NCBI RefSeq assembly: GCF_900143015.1 | Contig: NZ_FSRT01000001.1 | Span: forward strand, 682,001 to 746,000 | Length of the DNA: 64,000 nucleotides | Reading direction: 5' to 3' | DNA from: Fibrobacter sp. UWB11 | Lineage (GTDB): Bacteria > Fibrobacterota > Fibrobacteria > Fibrobacterales > Fibrobacteraceae | In this document: piece after piece, positions 19,128-35,667 of the stretch | Layout of the letters: each line of letters begins with the position of its first letter | How positions within the stretch are numbered: position 1 is the stretch's first letter | Notes under the pieces: generated by a model | Told to the model about the DNA's origin: nothing | Seen by the model: the letters and a program-made list of their open reading frames with translations, nothing else | The model's database searches: none | Translations under genes and position numbers: made by a program

Positions 19128-19177
19128 AACAAAAGAATAACTTATATTTAATTCAAATGTATGGGGAGGAGATGCTT

Positions 19178-20560
19178 ATGAAAATGTTTGCAAAGTTTGT
19201 GCCGTTTATGCTTGTGACAGCTATGTCTGTCTTTACCGCCTGTGGTGGCGATTCTGGCAGCAATGCTGATTCAGAAGAACCGGTGTCCAGCAGCAGTAAA
19301 AAGGACAGCTCGAAATCTAGCAGTAGCACGGCGAAGTCCTCTTCAAGTGCAAAGTCCTCGTCTGCGGACGATTGGGATGATGACGAAGAAATGTGCTTGC
19401 CACCAACGATATTTGGCTTGGCGGGTGAAGAGGGGTGTTCCGATCCGAGTATTTTGAGTTCCGTAAAGCCCGCTAAGCAGTGCAAAACGGAAAAGGATGA
19501 TAAGTGCGAATACGGCACGATGACCGACCCTCGTGATGGCAAAAAGTACAAGACGGTTGTCATTGGTGAACAGACTTGGATGGTGGATGACCTGAATTAC
19601 GAAATGGAAGGTTACAAAAAGGGCCGTTATAAGCAAACCGCTGCGATGCATGCTTGCCCTTACGGTTGGCATTTGCCGAGTGAATGCGAATACATGATTT
19701 TGATGGAGGCCATTGGAGGGTCTGACGTTGCGAGTAAAATGCTAAAGTCTACGACTGGCTGGAAAGATGGCCATAATGGTGTTGATGCTTTCGGCTTTTC
19801 GGCTCAGCAACTTTCTGATTTGGATGATGCTTATTTCTGGACGAGCAATTTTTATACCGACCTAGCTATAACCATGTGGGTTAGGGGTGATGAAGATGCT
19901 CATACGACTTGGTGGATTCGCCCTACATGTGAAAAATATCCGGTTCGTTGCGTTAAGGGGTATGGCCCTTCGGATGTGGGTGTCGAACGTAGCTCCTTCA
20001 AGGATTCTCGTGATGGTCAAACGTACAAGACGGTAAAAATCAATGAGCAGTGGTGGATGGCCGAGAATTTGAATTACGAGTCGGAAAATAGTTTTTGCTT
20101 CTATGATAACCCAAGCAAATGCGAAGAGTATGGTCGTCATTACACATGGGCGGCTGCGAAGAACGCTTGCCCTTCTGGCTGGCACTTGCCGGATACAACG
20201 GAATGGAATACGTTGATAAACCTTATGGGCGGTAAAGATGAAGCTGGCAAAATCCTCAAATCCACAAGTGGTTGGGAGCCTTGCAATCGGTATCGGACTG
20301 CAAGAAAGGGTGACGAAATTGTTAGGGTTGATACTATCCCAGTTGTGAACTTGGATAAATACGGATTTACGATTCTTCCTGCGGGTAATGCCCATACAGT
20401 CTTCGGTCTGGAGGGCATTTTGACGGAGTTTTGGACTTCCGTAGAACAGGGCGATTCTTTGGCAATCGACATGATAACCGCATATACGGATGATTCATTT
20501 GTGACGGCTAAATCAGATAAAAATTGGAAACTCTCGGTCCGGTGTGTAAAAGACAAATAA
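19178..20560 (+). CDS. Lipoprotein with two FISUMP domains
   Basis: 460 residues. The start at 19178 is seven bases after GGGGAGGAG; two earlier ATGs are worse placed. Lipobox VFTAC (Cys at about 19) is followed by a Ser-rich linker (SSSSKKDSSKSSSS) like those in Fibrobacter surface proteins. Two copies of the FISUMP domain follow (about 120-265 and 275-460), each with GxxYKTVxIxEQxWM, CPxGWHLP and PVRCVK. The first copy lacks the YTWAAA segment of the second. The domain is named for its abundance in Fibrobacter succinogenes; its function is unknown, but surface binding is plausible. It is 33 bp from a second FISUMP gene. Confidence 0.93.
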   Translation: MKMFAKFVPFMLVTAMSVFTACGGDSGSNADSEEPVSSSSKKDSSKSSSSTAKSSSSAKSSSADDWDDDEEMCLPPTIFGLAGEEGCSDPSILSSVKPAKQCKTEKDDKCEYGTMTDPRDGKKYKTVVIGEQTWMVDDLNYEMEGYKKGRYKQTAAMHACPYGWHLPSECEYMILMEAIGGSDVASKMLKSTTGWKDGHNGVDAFGFSAQQLSDLDDAYFWTSNFYTDLAITMWVRGDEDAHTTWWIRPTCEKYPVRCVKGYGPSDVGVERSSFKDSRDGQTYKTVKINEQWWMAENLNYESENSFCFYDNPSKCEEYGRHYTWAAAKNACPSGWHLPDTTEWNTLINLMGGKDEAGKILKSTSGWEPCNRYRTARKGDEIVRVDTIPVVNLDKYGFTILPAGNAHTVFGLEGILTEFWTSVEQGDSLAIDMITAYTDDSFVTAKSDKNWKLSVRCVKDK

Positions 20561-20593
20561 AAAGATCTTTAATTTATTCCTTGGAGGTTGTAG

Positions 20594-21403
20594 ATGAAAA
20601 AGTTATTCGCAATATGTGCCGTGTCTGTGTTCTTTCTTGTCGCTTGCGGTGGCGACAGTGGCAACAATGCCAATTCAGACGAACCTGAGTCCAGCAGTTC
20701 CGTCAAAAGCTCTAGTAGCAGTGCGAAATCAAGCAGTTCGGTGACTGTGGCGACTTCGTGCAAAACCGAAAAGAAAGACAATTGCGAATACGGTTCGCTG
20801 ACCGACGACCGCGATGGTCAGACTTACAAGACCGTGAAAATCGGCGAACAGATCTGGATGGCTGAGAACCTCAACTACGAAGAACGAAATAGTTACTGCT
20901 ATAATGATTCTGCAGAATACTGCGCCAAGTACGGTCGCCTTTACACCTGGGCTGCTGCGATGGATAGTGCGGAATCATGGAGCTCAAATGGCCGGTACTG
21001 TGGCTTCAATAAGACGTGCTCGTCGAAAAACCCAGTGCGCGGAATATGTCCTAAGGGCTGGCATCTGCCTTCCGATCAGGAATTCAAAACCCTGTTTGAG
21101 GCTGTTGGCGGCAAATCCACAGCTGGTACAGCTCTTAAGTCCACCAGTGGCTGGCATAATGAAGGTTCCGGCACCGATGCCTTCGGGTTCTCGGCACTCC
21201 CTGCCGGTGACAGGGAAACTTCTGGCAGGCGCGATGCTGATGTGGTTTTCAACAACGAGGGCAACGGCACGTACTTTTGGAGTTCTGCAGAGTTCGACAA
21301 GATCAATGCGCATGGCTTGTGCTTGAAAGACTATCATGGCGACGCGTATCTGGACTTGGTCCGCAAAAGTTACAGTTTTCCAGTCCGCTGCATCCAAGAT
21401 TAG
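20594..21403 (+). CDS. FISUMP-domain lipoprotein
   Basis: 269 residues, paralogous to the gene just upstream. Lipobox FLVAC is followed by GGDSGNNANS and a Ser-rich linker (about 30-50), almost the same layout as the neighbour, which points to tandem duplication. One full FISUMP domain spans about 65-269: DRDGQTYKTVKIGEQIWM, YGRLYTWAAAM, CPKGWHLPSDQEF, LKSTSGW, FGFSALPAG, YFWSSAE and FPVRCIQD. TTGGAGGT precedes the ATG. Co-transcription with the upstream gene is likely. Confidence 0.95.
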   Translation: MKKLFAICAVSVFFLVACGGDSGNNANSDEPESSSSVKSSSSSAKSSSSVTVATSCKTEKKDNCEYGSLTDDRDGQTYKTVKIGEQIWMAENLNYEERNSYCYNDSAEYCAKYGRLYTWAAAMDSAESWSSNGRYCGFNKTCSSKNPVRGICPKGWHLPSDQEFKTLFEAVGGKSTAGTALKSTSGWHNEGSGTDAFGFSALPAGDRETSGRRDADVVFNNEGNGTYFWSSAEFDKINAHGLCLKDYHGDAYLDLVRKSYSFPVRCIQD

Positions 21404-23570: not shown

Positions 23571-23748
23571 GTTTTCTTGTCCTTTGTTAAATTTTGAAGC
23601 AGGAAACTTTTGAAAGTTTCAAAATGAAACGTTTTTGCGTGTTTCCGCTCTGTTTTCGCGGGAATATATGCAATAACCGTGCCAACACAAGACCGCTCGC
23701 GCTAATGCAAAATAACAACACCTTCAGAGCGTTCGCTCTCGCAAACAC

Positions 23749-23773
23749 GCCTCGTTAATACGAGGCGCTTTTT
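23749..23773 (+). terminator. Hairpin with T run between htpG and the GH5-GT2 gene
   Basis: Seven-base stem GCCTCGT / ACGAGGC with TAAT loop and a T run on the plus strand. Both flanking genes run on the minus strand, so it may only partly serve the GH5-GT2 transcript. Confidence 0.45.
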
Positions 23774-23827: not shown

Positions 23828-26800
23828 TTAAGACGATATTCTATGAGAAATGTTTCTCCAGATGTCGAATAGTGCTCCTCGGCCGATTTTCAGGTATTGC
23901 GGCAGAGTTGAAATGCGGTCGTAAAGCATCTGGATGTATTCGTCCTTTTTGCCGTTAAAATCGAGAATTTCGACGGTATAGACGCTTGGAATGTGCGGAT
24001 TATTAGAACGATGTTCTGCAACTACAGTTCCCTTGAGTTGCAGCGTGTAGCTCGTCGTTTGAATTTCAAAATTGATGGGTTCACCTAGGTACAAATCGTT
24101 CATGTTGTCTGTGTAAATGTCGACTCCGTGTTCAAGTAGTTTTGTGGTAATGCCACTTACGCGGCAGCCGTCTTCTTTAGTGACCTCAACCAATTCCGCG
24201 GCTCGAACTTTCACGTTTTCGCCATCTGCATCGCGTCCGAGAACAAGCATAATGCACATGATAAGGTAATACGAATTGATGAATAGCCAAAACAATATGG
24301 CGAGTACTCCGATGTATTCGTAAACAATGAACATGTAAGTCATTTGCGCAATTCCCAAAACGGTCAGTGTCAATAACACAATAAAGGGAATAAGGCTCTT
24401 TTTGTCGATAATTCTTTCGTTTGCTTTTTCTTTCTTGGTGACTTTGAATGTCGAAAGCGTGAGGCCAAGCGCTTCCTTAATGATGGGTATCAGCAAGAAT
24501 GGCATGACGGATGTTTCGTAAATGCCGCTCCAACGAGTTGAAATCATGTTGCGGCTAAGAACGCGCAGCGAAATAATCTGCATAATATGCATCGGTAGCC
24601 AGAATAAAATCAAGTCTAGCAAGGTGCATTTGAAAATGGGAATGCAAAAAACGGCAAACATCAAGGGTGATAGCAAATAAACTAGATGCTTGATGGGGGA
24701 AAACCAATATAAAACGGAACTCAGGTAGCTTAATTTTTGCGCAAAGTTCAATTTGCGATTTCGTAAAAACTTGAGCTGCTTGGCTGTTGCGATGACTCCG
24801 CGCCCCCAGCGGGTGCGCTGCTGGATGTGCTCTTTGAACGAGTTGGGTGCAATTCCCGAGGCGAGCGCTTCCGAAAGCCCAAGGCTTGCAAATCCAGATG
24901 ATTCGATCAGCATGCCGGTTGCAAAGTCTTCGGTGATGGTTTCCGTGTAAAAACCGCCGATTTTGTTTAGCGCCTTTCTTGAAAGAATTGTATTGGAGCC
25001 TCCGTAAATCACGCTGTTTGATGAAGTCTTTGCCGCTTCGATTACGCGGTAGAAAAAGTCTTGTTCGTTCGGAACAATTGTTTCTGCATACAAATTATGT
25101 TGGAAAACATCCGGTGTGTAAAAACTTTGCGGTGTTTGTACAATGCCGAGCGGAAATCGCTTTTCTTCGGGCAAAGTTTCGTTGATTTTTTCGGCATCGA
25201 TAAAGTAGGGGATGGTCTTGAGTAAAAACTTGCGGCGCGGAATCATGTCTGCATCTAAAGTCACTATGTAAGGCGATGTTGTTCGCTTTAAGGCTTCGTT
25301 CAGGTTCCCGGCTTTGGCGCCTTTGTTATCGGGGCGGTCAAAGTAATTTACGCCCAGTTCTTCGGCAAGCTTACGCATTTCGGGGCGACGATTGTCGTCG
25401 CACAGATAAATGTGAACTTTATCCTTATCGGGATATTCCATGTACTTGCAACCGATAATGGTCTTGCGCAAAAGCTCAACAGGTTCATTGTAAGTGGATA
25501 TGAAAATGTCGACATCCGGGAATTCTTCGGGCTTGATTTGCGGTAGCGGATATTTCCTCAAGTTGAGCATGTCGTTGTAATGAATCAATGATTCTATGAA
25601 TCCGAGAATTTCTACAGCGAGCAAAATGACGCTTCCTATTACGGCGATGTTTCCGAATGCAAATGGGATGGAACATGTCATTCGCCAGCAAAGGTAAATC
25701 AAGGTACAAATAGTTCCTATAATCAGTACGGCGTTTCTCCAAAAACTTGGCTTGCGTACTTTATCTTCGGTGTGCCCGTATTTGTATAATTGCGTATAGG
25801 TCTTGATTTGGTTTCTTTTTAATTTTTTTAGAACGATTTTTGTTACTGTTAATAATAAAACGATAATGAGCGCCGGTGCAGCAAATATAAGCCAAAGCAT
25901 GTAAGGCTGTGTTCGCGATATAATTTTGAATTTTGATGATATTCTGTTGTCTGGGGCGATGGAGTCGACATCTTCTTTGCGCATAATCGCTCGTGCGAGT
26001 TTCCCGTAATATGTCAAATCTTTTTCGGTCAGGTATTCTAATGCACGAGAATCCGAATTGACAATGGCGCAAGTTTCATCTTTGTTGGATAAACTCCAAA
26101 TTGTATAATTTAGATGTAATGAATCGACAAGGCTGTACCATTTTTTGACACTTTCCAAGTCAATATGCCCATTGCCATCTTCTTCGCAGAGACCGCTTTC
26201 GGTAATGAAAATGGGCGTACCTGAGGCTACGACTTTTCTAAGCTTTTGGCGAAAATCATCTTTGTGCGAGGCCGCGTAAAAATGGAACACGTACATGACA
26301 TTTTTAAATTCCAAAGGATCCTTGGCAGGGAATTGAATTTCTCGACTGTAGTTCGGTGTTCCGACAAGAATCAATGCATCGGGATTGTATCTGCGGATGA
26401 CGGGAATTATCAGATTTGAATATTCCTTGATGTCGTCCCAAGTGGTATTGCCGTTGGGTTCGTTGCAGATTTCGAAAATGACATTGGGAATATTGGCGTA
26501 TTTTTTTGCAATCTTGTTAAAAAAATCGATTGCTTCAGCAAGGTTTTCGTTGGGATTATTGTCTTGTAAAATGTGCCAGTCGATGATGACATACATGTCG
26601 TTTGCGATGGCGAATTCGACACCTTTTTCGAGAATTTTCAAATTTTTCTTTTTGTTACCGTTGCAGTAGTCGTAAGAATACATGGCGAGTCGAATCAAGT
26701 TGGTGTTCCACTCGGAACTGATTTGGCGGAAAAGACCTTGATTGACATATTTAGGGAACCAAGTGAGCCCGTGTGTGCTGAATCCCTTGAGAACGGCTAG

Positions 26801-26926
26801 ATTGCCTTTGTGGTCGTAGAGGTTTGAACCTACAACGTGGAGCTTTCCATGTGTGGATGGTCGGGCAACATTGGCGTTCGCAAAAACAGCAAATACGAAT
26901 AAAAACGCTAAAATAAATCTCGCCAT
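23828..26926 (-). CDS. GH5 glycosidase fused to GT2 cellulose-synthase-like transferase
   Basis: A single 1032-residue protein. The start at 26926 follows AAGGGGAA; the ORF is open for 20 more codons. After a signal-like N-terminus (1-19) comes a GH5 cellulase-type domain (about 25-335) with acid/base Glu 156 in ICNEPNG and nucleophile Glu 243 in FITESGL. A membrane helix (about 343-366) follows, then two more (about 398-445). The cytosolic GT2 domain (about 465-715) has DD 510-511, LDADM 557-561, QTPQ 597-600, TED 665-667 and QQRTRW 702-707, the cellulose-synthase set. About six more helices and a C-terminal PilZ-like region follow, but no RxxxR c-di-GMP motif is seen. The topology puts GH5 outside and GT2 inside, so the glycosidase could trim or transfer the glucan as it emerges. 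Product and linkage are unknown. Confidence 0.93.
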   Translation of the reverse strand: MARFILAFLFVFAVFANANVARPSTHGKLHVVGSNLYDHKGNLAVLKGFSTHGLTWFPKYVNQGLFRQISSEWNTNLIRLAMYSYDYCNGNKKKNLKILEKGVEFAIANDMYVIIDWHILQDNNPNENLAEAIDFFNKIAKKYANIPNVIFEICNEPNGNTTWDDIKEYSNLIIPVIRRYNPDALILVGTPNYSREIQFPAKDPLEFKNVMYVFHFYAASHKDDFRQKLRKVVASGTPIFITESGLCEEDGNGHIDLESVKKWYSLVDSLHLNYTIWSLSNKDETCAIVNSDSRALEYLTEKDLTYYGKLARAIMRKEDVDSIAPDNRISSKFKIISRTQPYMLWLIFAAPALIIVLLLTVTKIVLKKLKRNQIKTYTQLYKYGHTEDKVRKPSFWRNAVLIIGTICTLIYLCWRMTCSIPFAFGNIAVIGSVILLAVEILGFIESLIHYNDMLNLRKYPLPQIKPEEFPDVDIFISTYNEPVELLRKTIIGCKYMEYPDKDKVHIYLCDDNRRPEMRKLAEELGVNYFDRPDNKGAKAGNLNEALKRTTSPYIVTLDADMIPRRKFLLKTIPYFIDAEKINETLPEEKRFPLGIVQTPQSFYTPDVFQHNLYAETIVPNEQDFFYRVIEAAKTSSNSVIYGGSNTILSRKALNKIGGFYTETITEDFATGMLIESSGFASLGLSEALASGIAPNSFKEHIQQRTRWGRGVIATAKQLKFLRNRKLNFAQKLSYLSSVLYWFSPIKHLVYLLSPLMFAVFCIPIFKCTLLDLILFWLPMHIMQIISLRVLSRNMISTRWSGIYETSVMPFLLIPIIKEALGLTLSTFKVTKKEKANERIIDKKSLIPFIVLLTLTVLGIAQMTYMFIVYEYIGVLAILFWLFINSYYLIMCIMLVLGRDADGENVKVRAAELVEVTKEDGCRVSGITTKLLEHGVDIYTDNMNDLYLGEPINFEIQTTSYTLQLKGTVVAEHRSNNPHIPSVYTVEILDFNGKKDEYIQMLYDRISTLPQYLKIGRGALFDIWRNISHRISS

Positions 26927-26961
26927 AAAAATTCCCCTTCTTATAAAAATAAAGATAAGCA

Positions 26962-26995
26962 AAAAAAATAAAAATCGCACTCGCAAAGCGAGTGC
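26962..26995 (-). terminator. Terminator after uppP
   Basis: Stem GCACTCGC / GCGAGTGC (26977-26995) with a T run on the minus strand. It separates uppP from the GH5-GT2 gene, so that gene needs its own promoter. Confidence 0.8.
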
Positions 26996-34635: not shown

Positions 34636-35667
34636 ATGGCTAGTGTTCTTCAAGAAGCCTGGGCAATTTTTCAGAGCTATATCCTTCCGGCTCTTCCGTT
34701 TGTCGCGCTTGTGCTGATTGAAATTCATCTCATGTATAACCGTCGTGAAAATGAGGTGATGTTTGGCACAGACTCGTTCAACGAGAAGATCAAGGCGTTC
34801 GAGTTTACGCCCAAGGAAGTGCGTACTTTGGAAAAATTGGTGCGTTCATCTAAGTTCGAAAACAAGGATGCCGTGCTGAATTCCTCAGGACTTTTTGAAA
34901 CCGCAGTCTCGGAGTTTTACCGTATCCGCAATGTTTTTTCTGTTCGCGATGAAACGCTTGATGCTATTTCTTGCTTACGGCGAAAGATGGACTTTACTGG
35001 AGCGAATCCTTTGTCCATAGTTTGCTCGTCAAGACAGTTCAATGTAGGGGATCGCGTGGACCTGGAATTCGAGAACGGTTTGTTGGTTAAGCGTTCTCAG
35101 ATTCTAGAGCGTTCAGAAAAGACATGGAGCGTGTCGATTGAAGGCTCCGTGTCGCTTGCGAAATCGATTTCCGGCTCGCGTGCGCTTGTCCGCTGGACTC
35201 GTATGAATGACGCTGTTTATTCAGTAAGGCTTTCCGTTTTTTCTGCCTCTCCAAATAAGGTTGTTTTTCTCCATAGCGATAAGCTTGAAAAAGAACAGTT
35301 GCGTAAATGGGTTCGTCAAGTTGTCGATTTCCCGGTGACGGCAACGTTCCCGAACGGAGAGGTGCACTCGGGCGTGCTTTATGACTTGTCTGCTGGTGGT
35401 ATTTTGCTTGGACTTACCGAAGATTGCAAGCCGGACCAGCAGTTTTCGATTTCGTTCGAGCTTCCGACGTTTGGTGTACAGAATGTGGATGTTAAGGTTT
35501 TGAACAATTTGGGGCATCGAAATCCTGATTTTCCACTATATAATTCCATTTCGGCGGTGTTTACTGGATCGTATGCTTGGACCCAAGAACACGTCTTGCA
35601 GTACATTTTTGAGGCTACTCGCAAATCAAAAGCGAAAAAAATGGGCCAAAATGATGTTTTAACTTAA
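34636..35667 (+). CDS. PilZ-domain protein with N-terminal membrane anchor
   Basis: 343 residues. A hydrophobic segment at about 15-32 (YILPALPFVALVLIEIHLM) anchors it. A middle region (about 120-210) resembles the N-terminal part of YcgR-like proteins. The PilZ domain at about 220-330 has RKWVRQVVDFP (RxxxR) and DLSAGGILL (DxSxxG), the two parts of a c-di-GMP site, so binding is likely. It lies 14 bp after pyrC', but the next gene, pilM, has its own promoter. Its place next to the pilus operon suggests a role in pilus or surface motility control; this is inferred. Confidence 0.87.
   Translation: MASVLQEAWAIFQSYILPALPFVALVLIEIHLMYNRRENEVMFGTDSFNEKIKAFEFTPKEVRTLEKLVRSSKFENKDAVLNSSGLFETAVSEFYRIRNVFSVRDETLDAISCLRRKMDFTGANPLSIVCSSRQFNVGDRVDLEFENGLLVKRSQILERSEKTWSVSIEGSVSLAKSISGSRALVRWTRMNDAVYSVRLSVFSASPNKVVFLHSDKLEKEQLRKWVRQVVDFPVTATFPNGEVHSGVLYDLSAGGILLGLTEDCKPDQQFSISFELPTFGVQNVDVKVLNNLGHRNPDFPLYNSISAVFTGSYAWTQEHVLQYIFEATRKSKAKKMGQNDVLT

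Follow-up and report, generated by a model that had tools for sequence, protein, structure and literature searches.

A GH5 endoglucanase domain fused to a BcsA-like GT2 synthase in Fibrobacter and other gut bacteria

The need of cellulose synthases for a cellulase has long been a puzzle, with BcsZ, CcsZ and plant KORRIGAN as examples. In the stretch of DNA analysed here (the window, 64,000 nucleotides from Fibrobacter sp. UWB11), a single gene joins a GH5 endoglucanase domain to a GT2 synthase, which raises the question of whether this hydrolase works on the product of the enzyme to which it is tethered.

Architecture of the fusion protein

The gene is one uninterrupted open reading frame of 1032 aa on the minus strand (window 23828–26926), with its ATG at 26926 and its stop codon at 23830–23828. 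The single polypeptide originally predicted is thus upheld, as the frame has no internal stop, and the strand, which had been left unstated, is the minus strand. The flanking genes are uppP and htpG and, given the terminator-like hairpins on either side (Table 1), the gene is probably its own transcription unit. The encoded protein consists, in order, of a signal peptide, a GH5 endoglucanase domain (residues 24–317), a membrane helix, a BcsA-like GT2 synthase and a PilZ-fold tail. An AlphaFold2 model built from 71 homologues reached a mean pLDDT of 88.5 and a pTM of only 0.71, which leaves the orientation of the GH5 domain relative to the channel uncertain.

Table 1 Features of the fusion gene and of unfused GH5–GT2 gene pairs. 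Residue numbers refer to the 1032-aa protein; coordinates are those of the window unless a locus is named.
Feature	Coordinates	Strand	Evidence
GH5-TM-GT2-PilZ-like fusion gene	23828..26926	-	1032 aa; ORF, Pfam, homologues
Likely ribosome-binding site GAAGGGG, 7 nt before ATG	26934..26940	-	Read from sequence
Terminator-like hairpin, between uppP and fusion gene	26977..26995	-	Pattern match only
Terminator-like palindrome, between fusion gene and htpG	23748..23767	+	Pattern match only
Signal peptide, residues 1-19, MARFILAFLFVFAVFANAN	26870..26926	-	Hydrophobic segment; homologue N-termini similar
GH5 (Cel5A/GH5_2-like) endoglucanase domain, residues 24-317	25976..26857	-	Pfam, structure comparison
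Glu156, acid/base	26459..26461	-	Invariant, 79/79 fused homologues
Glu243, nucleophile	26198..26200	-	Invariant, 79/79 fused homologues
Ser244, beside nucleophile	26195..26197	-	Cys/Ser in 87/87 fused, aromatic in 24/24 free GH5 relatives
Added membrane helix, 341-369, leaves GH5 outside	25820..25906	-	AlphaFold2 helix; hydropathy
Membrane helix, 395-418	25673..25744	-	AlphaFold2 model; hydropathy
Membrane helix, 426-454	25565..25651	-	AlphaFold2 model; hydropathy
Cytosolic GT2 catalytic domain, 472-720; DD, DxD, QTPQ, TED, QQRTRW	24767..25513	-	Pfam, alignment, structure
C-side channel membrane helices, 743-896	24239..24700	-	AlphaFold2 model, structure comparison, hydropathy
FKVTKK (827-832), BcsA gating-loop motif FxVTxK	24431..24448	-	Motif comparison
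PilZ-fold tail, 905-992, without RxxxR or DxSxxG	23951..24214	-	AlphaFold2 model, motif checks
GH5 + PilZ-less GT2 gene pairs (Lachnospiraceae, Erysipelotrichaceae)	L138:5822-8643, L139:7383-10238, L187:1237-3862, L188:7296-9954, L189:6003-8667

Pfam places Cellulase (PF00150) at residues 38–282 (E 5.6e-59), and the nearest solved structures for residues 24–317 are Cel5A-type endoglucanases, the model matching Bacillus Cel5A (PDB 1A3H, 6GJF) with a target TM-score of 0.95 and an rmsd of 1.5–2.2. The (beta/alpha)8 fold, the two catalytic Glu and the Cel5A subsite residues are all present, which identifies the domain as GH5, while the GH5_2-like subfamily call rests on similarity and not on CAZy. 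The exported domain with catalytic Glu156 and Glu243 that had been predicted is confirmed by the Pfam match and by the invariance of both residues in 79 fused homologues. W277, K282 and E284, which we take to be substrate-contact residues from their role in Cel5A, are likewise retained. The Bacillus enzymes share this fold and the same catalytic residues, but they are secreted free and carry an aromatic residue after the nucleophile, a position at which the 87 fused GH5 domains have Cys (73) or Ser (14), compared with Trp, Tyr or Phe in each of the 24 free relatives. The fused copies are further set apart by Thr55 and Glu248. The retained contact residues, taken together with these fusion-specific substitutions, suggest that the domain is probably active but retuned; the change may favour transfer, slow the cutting or widen the cleft.

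A GH5 domain that is catalytically weak and serves to guide or bind the chain, like BcsB or CcsB, would be in line with the fused-only Cys/Ser at 244 and with the lack of any BcsB in the genome; such a reading is nevertheless very improbable, as both Glu and all the other active-site positions tested vary little or not at all, a conservation that mere binding would not need.

For the synthase half, Pfam GT2 families match residues 470–760 and Cellulose_synt matches 654–802, and BcsA is the nearest solved structure for residues 398–955 (TM-score 0.67–0.76). The predicted GT2 core with DD, DxD, QTPQ, TED and QQRTRW was found and is essentially invariant in 79 fused homologues (C509-D510-D511, D558xD560, Q597xPQ600, T665-E666-D667 and the QQRTRW core), the DD, DxD and TED motifs and the QxxRW residues being invariant across the 79 aligned copies. 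These features, with FxVTxK and the channel fold, are those of the BcsA class, although the TIGR03030 (BcsA/CelA) score of 370.5 bits lies below the curated cut-off of 699.1. Compared with BcsA and its partners BcsB/BcsZ (PDB 4P00, 9B8V), the protein shares the GT2 core, channel helices, FxVTxK gating loop and PilZ fold, but it lacks BcsB, none being found in the host genome, as well as the c-di-GMP motifs, and has a fused GH5 where BcsA has a separate GH8.

Three hydrophobic segments separate GH5 from GT2 in 70/79 fused proteins, compared with at most two before the GT2 domain in unfused relatives. Because the extra helix (residues 341–369) makes the number of crossings odd, the GH5 domain would lie outside the membrane and the GT2 domain inside, and the GH5 side would correspond to the periplasm in Fibrobacter and Treponema and to the cell surface in Bacillota.

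Distribution and origin of the fused gene

A search for the same GH5–TM–GT2 order and its phyletic range, suggested in the original prediction, recovered about 100 fused loci with the same domain order, which also rules out an assembly chimera, and homologues from four phyla. The homologue set analysed here comes from one scan of genome contigs and comprises the best 80 of 468 relatives; in nearly all of these, a single reading frame spans GH5 and GT2. These 80 derive from Bacillota (71), Fibrobacterota (6), Spirochaetota (2) and Actinomycetota (1), and for 55 of them a tag in the record title points to a herbivore gut or a rumen project; many of the remaining genomes presumably come from rumen isolates or from binned rumen metagenomes. 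The Bacillota with the fused architecture are mainly Lachnospiraceae, Erysipelotrichaceae and Oscillospiraceae; outside that phylum it was found in Fibrobacter, two Treponema and an Atopobiaceae. Within Fibrobacterota it is confined to the genus Fibrobacter (about 22/80 species genomes), and it was found in 2/195 genomes of Treponemataceae and about 15/273 of Erysipelotrichaceae. This patchy distribution and the different genomic sites within Fibrobacter point to horizontal transfer and loss; searches of viral contigs and plasmids found no fused copies.

Breaks between the domains in relatives, which the original prediction had named as evidence that would count against it, are isolated (L057, L012 and L013), and nearly all copies are intact. 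In L057, from one MAG, a stop codon (1405–1415) in the segment linking GH5 to the membrane helix yields two ORFs and may be real or an error, while the single-copy frame breaks in L012:10001–13107 (Treponema JC4) and L013:1231–4270 (a Fibrobacter MAG) may be draft-assembly errors or decaying genes. Additionally, a close relative of the window's genome, whose fusion (L088) is 98% identical, carries part of a second version of the gene (L163:6388–7722, minus strand); this remnant is truncated at its 5' end, is about 85% identical to the copy in L164 and appears to be the trace of a second acquisition. At L022:8764–9765 (minus strand), a free GH5 gene, 44% identical to the window's GH5, lies beside a fused gene in divergent orientation.

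Separate trees of the two halves each contain one fused clade (support 100 for GT2 and 95 for GH5), the GT2 clade being confirmed with wider sampling, and L057, with its stop codons between the domains, is alone in looking unfused within these clades. Branch order agrees between the trees, with L082 outside and Fibrobacter and Treponema forming one supported subclade within Bacillota. The congruence of both halves argues for a single fusion in Bacillota, from which the gene was later transferred into Fibrobacter, Treponema and an Atopobiaceae.

The nearest free GT2s, about 50–53% identical over the core, lie in clusters with CotH, MBOAT and AlgX-like genes that resemble clostridial ccsZABHI (PMC7710045); one such cluster, L141, includes a separate GH5 so divergent that it gives no match to the fused one. 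In a tree built without C. difficile CcsA itself, the fused GT2 is nested among Bacillota synthases from ccs-like clusters, and the synthase half appears to derive from clostridial CcsA-like synthases of O-acetylation operons, some of which have a separate GH5. For the GH5 half, the nearest free relatives in the tree are Lachnospiraceae cellulases, which, judging from their family, would be secreted. Descent from a CcsZ-type GH5 was ruled out, as CcsZ-type matches are far weaker than Cel5A-type ones and the tree places the domain beside the Lachnospiraceae enzymes; since CcsZ belongs to GH5_25 (PMC9693552), the fused GH5 is best explained as a replacement from the degradative repertoire, not a captured CcsZ.

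The clostridial system is akin to the fusion in that a GT2–PilZ synthase is served by a GH5 outside the membrane (PMC7710045), which bears out the originally predicted link to the endoglucanases of cellulose synthase operons. CcsZ, however, is a separate GH5_25 protein (PMC9693552) whose operon also contains CcsB and genes for acetylation, whereas the fusion carries a Cel5A-type GH5 in cis and has no operon: around the fused gene, a CcsA-type operon (CcsB, MBOAT, DHHW and a separate CcsZ) is not present. Across the homologue loci we found no conserved neighbours or partner gene, and this, together with the lack of BcsB, makes it likely that the fusion is self-sufficient.

The PilZ tail and c-di-GMP control

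The C-terminal tail (residues about 905–992) forms a six-stranded barrel in the AlphaFold2 model and, as predicted for this PilZ-like tail, has no RxxxR; DxSxxG is absent too. Both c-di-GMP motifs stand at the expected position in 31/40 unfused relatives, compared with 0/79 fused proteins. A supported separate clade (L138, L139 and L187–L189) has a Cel5A-type GH5 gene directly upstream of, or overlapping, the GT2 gene, and here the motifs are kept in 0/5, the PilZ domain missing altogether. The c-di-GMP switch was hence lost in two separate lineages with a Cel5A-type GH5 ahead of the synthase, which is a tendency and not a rule. A strict coupling of GH5 to motif loss is broken by L140 and L196, in which a GH5 elsewhere in the cluster is linked to a synthase that has kept the motifs, and by L181, L184, L192 and L195, which have lost them with no GH5 seen nearby. 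In L196 (5624–8966, minus strand; Treponemataceae), the GH5 gene lies directly downstream of the PilZ-bearing GT2; L184 (6269–8926, plus strand) is a related GT2 whose N-terminal extension is of another kind, with many hydrophobic segments.

The host genome yields 28 GGDEF matches but only one protein recognised as PilZ by Pfam (window 34636–35667, plus strand), indicating that a c-di-GMP pathway exists in this organism, although it probably does not act on the fused synthase. The functional coupling of GH5 and synthase that was originally proposed is backed by the conserved fusion, by the lineages with adjacent GH5 and GT2 genes and by the GH5 of the clostridial operons.

Proposed function of the tethered hydrolase

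From sequence and structural modelling, we consider it probable (roughly 0.6) that the protein is a self-contained beta-glucan synthase that works independently of c-di-GMP, and that its tethered endoglucanase cuts the chain, or transfers it, as it emerges. The GT2 domain would polymerise glucose from UDP-glucose at the cytosolic face, and the chain would cross the membrane by the channel, as it does in BcsA. On the outer face, the GH5 domain would cut the chain or transfer pieces of it. In place of the long cellulose of biofilms, whose synthesis answers to c-di-GMP, such a protein would release a soluble or short glucan containing beta-1,4 bonds, independently of that signal. Its GH5 in cis would take over from CcsZ, the separate GH5 of operons of the ancestral type, and the physiological role would be that of a soluble periplasmic or surface glucan.

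Mixed-linkage glucan can be cut by GH5_2 enzymes, and a polymer that is a mixed-linkage (1,3;1,4) or other beta-glucan, edited or released by the GH5 domain, is a possible though less probable reading. RiGT2, a BcsB-independent BcsA-like synthase of the Gram-positive type with the same motif set, makes (1,3;1,4)-beta-glucan, so the linkage cannot be read from the sequence; its activity is unaffected by c-di-GMP and, unlike the fusion, it has no GH domain and retains RxxxR and NxSxxG (PMC10374906). The replacement of BcsA QTPH by QTPQ and of HxKAG by GxKAG would also be compatible with a different linkage, but QTPQ, and in some cases GAKAG, occurs in unfused clostridial relatives and is not specific, and the GH5 domain keeps the Cel5A cellulose-subsite residues.

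GH5 is a retaining glycoside hydrolase family, which would suit a domain that acts mainly by transglycosylation, rejoining the chain or making it cyclic as it emerges. The fused-only Cys/Ser in place of an aromatic residue beside the nucleophile would suit such a role too, as would the differing Thr55 and Glu248. Such a role has been proposed for the GH17 domain of the pseudomonad Orphan/NdvB proteins, for which cyclic beta-1,3-glucan is the proposed product; here too an exported GH is joined through TM helices to a BcsA-like GT2 without c-di-GMP motifs, in the same domain order and encoded alone, without gene partners (PMC10237404). These proteins differ from the fusion in having GH17 and not GH5, QSPQ, FFRTPK and GFKGG and not QTPQ, FKVTKK and GAKAG, and no PilZ domain where the fusion has a degenerate PilZ fold. 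We regard a mainly transglycosylating GH5 as unlikely, because the hydrolase residues are all kept, the closest free kin are ordinary endoglucanases and no sequence feature is specific to cyclisation.

As another alternative, the GH5 domain might act on dietary plant cellulose and use the fusion merely as an anchor, with no role on the synthase product. The hosts are fibre-associated gut bacteria and the domain is close to secreted dietary cellulases, but Pfam found no CBM in the fusion protein, a single fusion has been kept over four phyla with both active sites intact, GH5 is repeatedly coupled with such synthases, and in Fibrobacter an inner-membrane tether would place the domain in the periplasm, away from the fibre. 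This explanation therefore seems highly unlikely.

The principle of an exported GH joined by TM helices to a BcsA-like GT2 is already known with GH17 (PMC10237404), as is GH5 in trans (CcsZ). GT2 domains attached to GH domains have been counted (PMC4928363), but a GH5–GT2 fusion protein is not described there, and a search of the open-licence literature yielded no prior description of the fusion, its gut-bacterial spread or its c-di-GMP motif loss. The fusion is well supported as a family, and its mechanism is what we infer. More tentatively, these proteins might constitute a family of single-chain, c-di-GMP-free glucan factories, in which a dietary-type cellulase and a clostridial synthase were fused once and traded among herbivore-gut bacteria, the retuned GH5 (Cys/Ser) metering or transglycosylating its own nascent chain to give beta-glucan oligosaccharides of a new class, secreted or periplasmic, in the rumen.

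F. succinogenes S85 excretes cellodextrins, which have been attributed to cellobiose/cellodextrin phosphorylase (PMC3079729), and we claim no link to the fusion gene. The proposed function would imply that fibre-digesting gut bacteria make and cut their own beta-glucan, a polymer that could serve as food for neighbours or be mistaken for plant fibre in assays. Synthase and hydrolase are here parts of one molecule and always present 1:1, and nature supplies both split and unfused relatives as comparisons, so that point mutations in one gene can be used to test what the hydrolase does. Elsewhere in the window, two tandem lipoprotein genes (19157–21403, plus strand) encode a pair that, we presume, resembles the Fibrobacter FISUMP paralogous-domain proteins.
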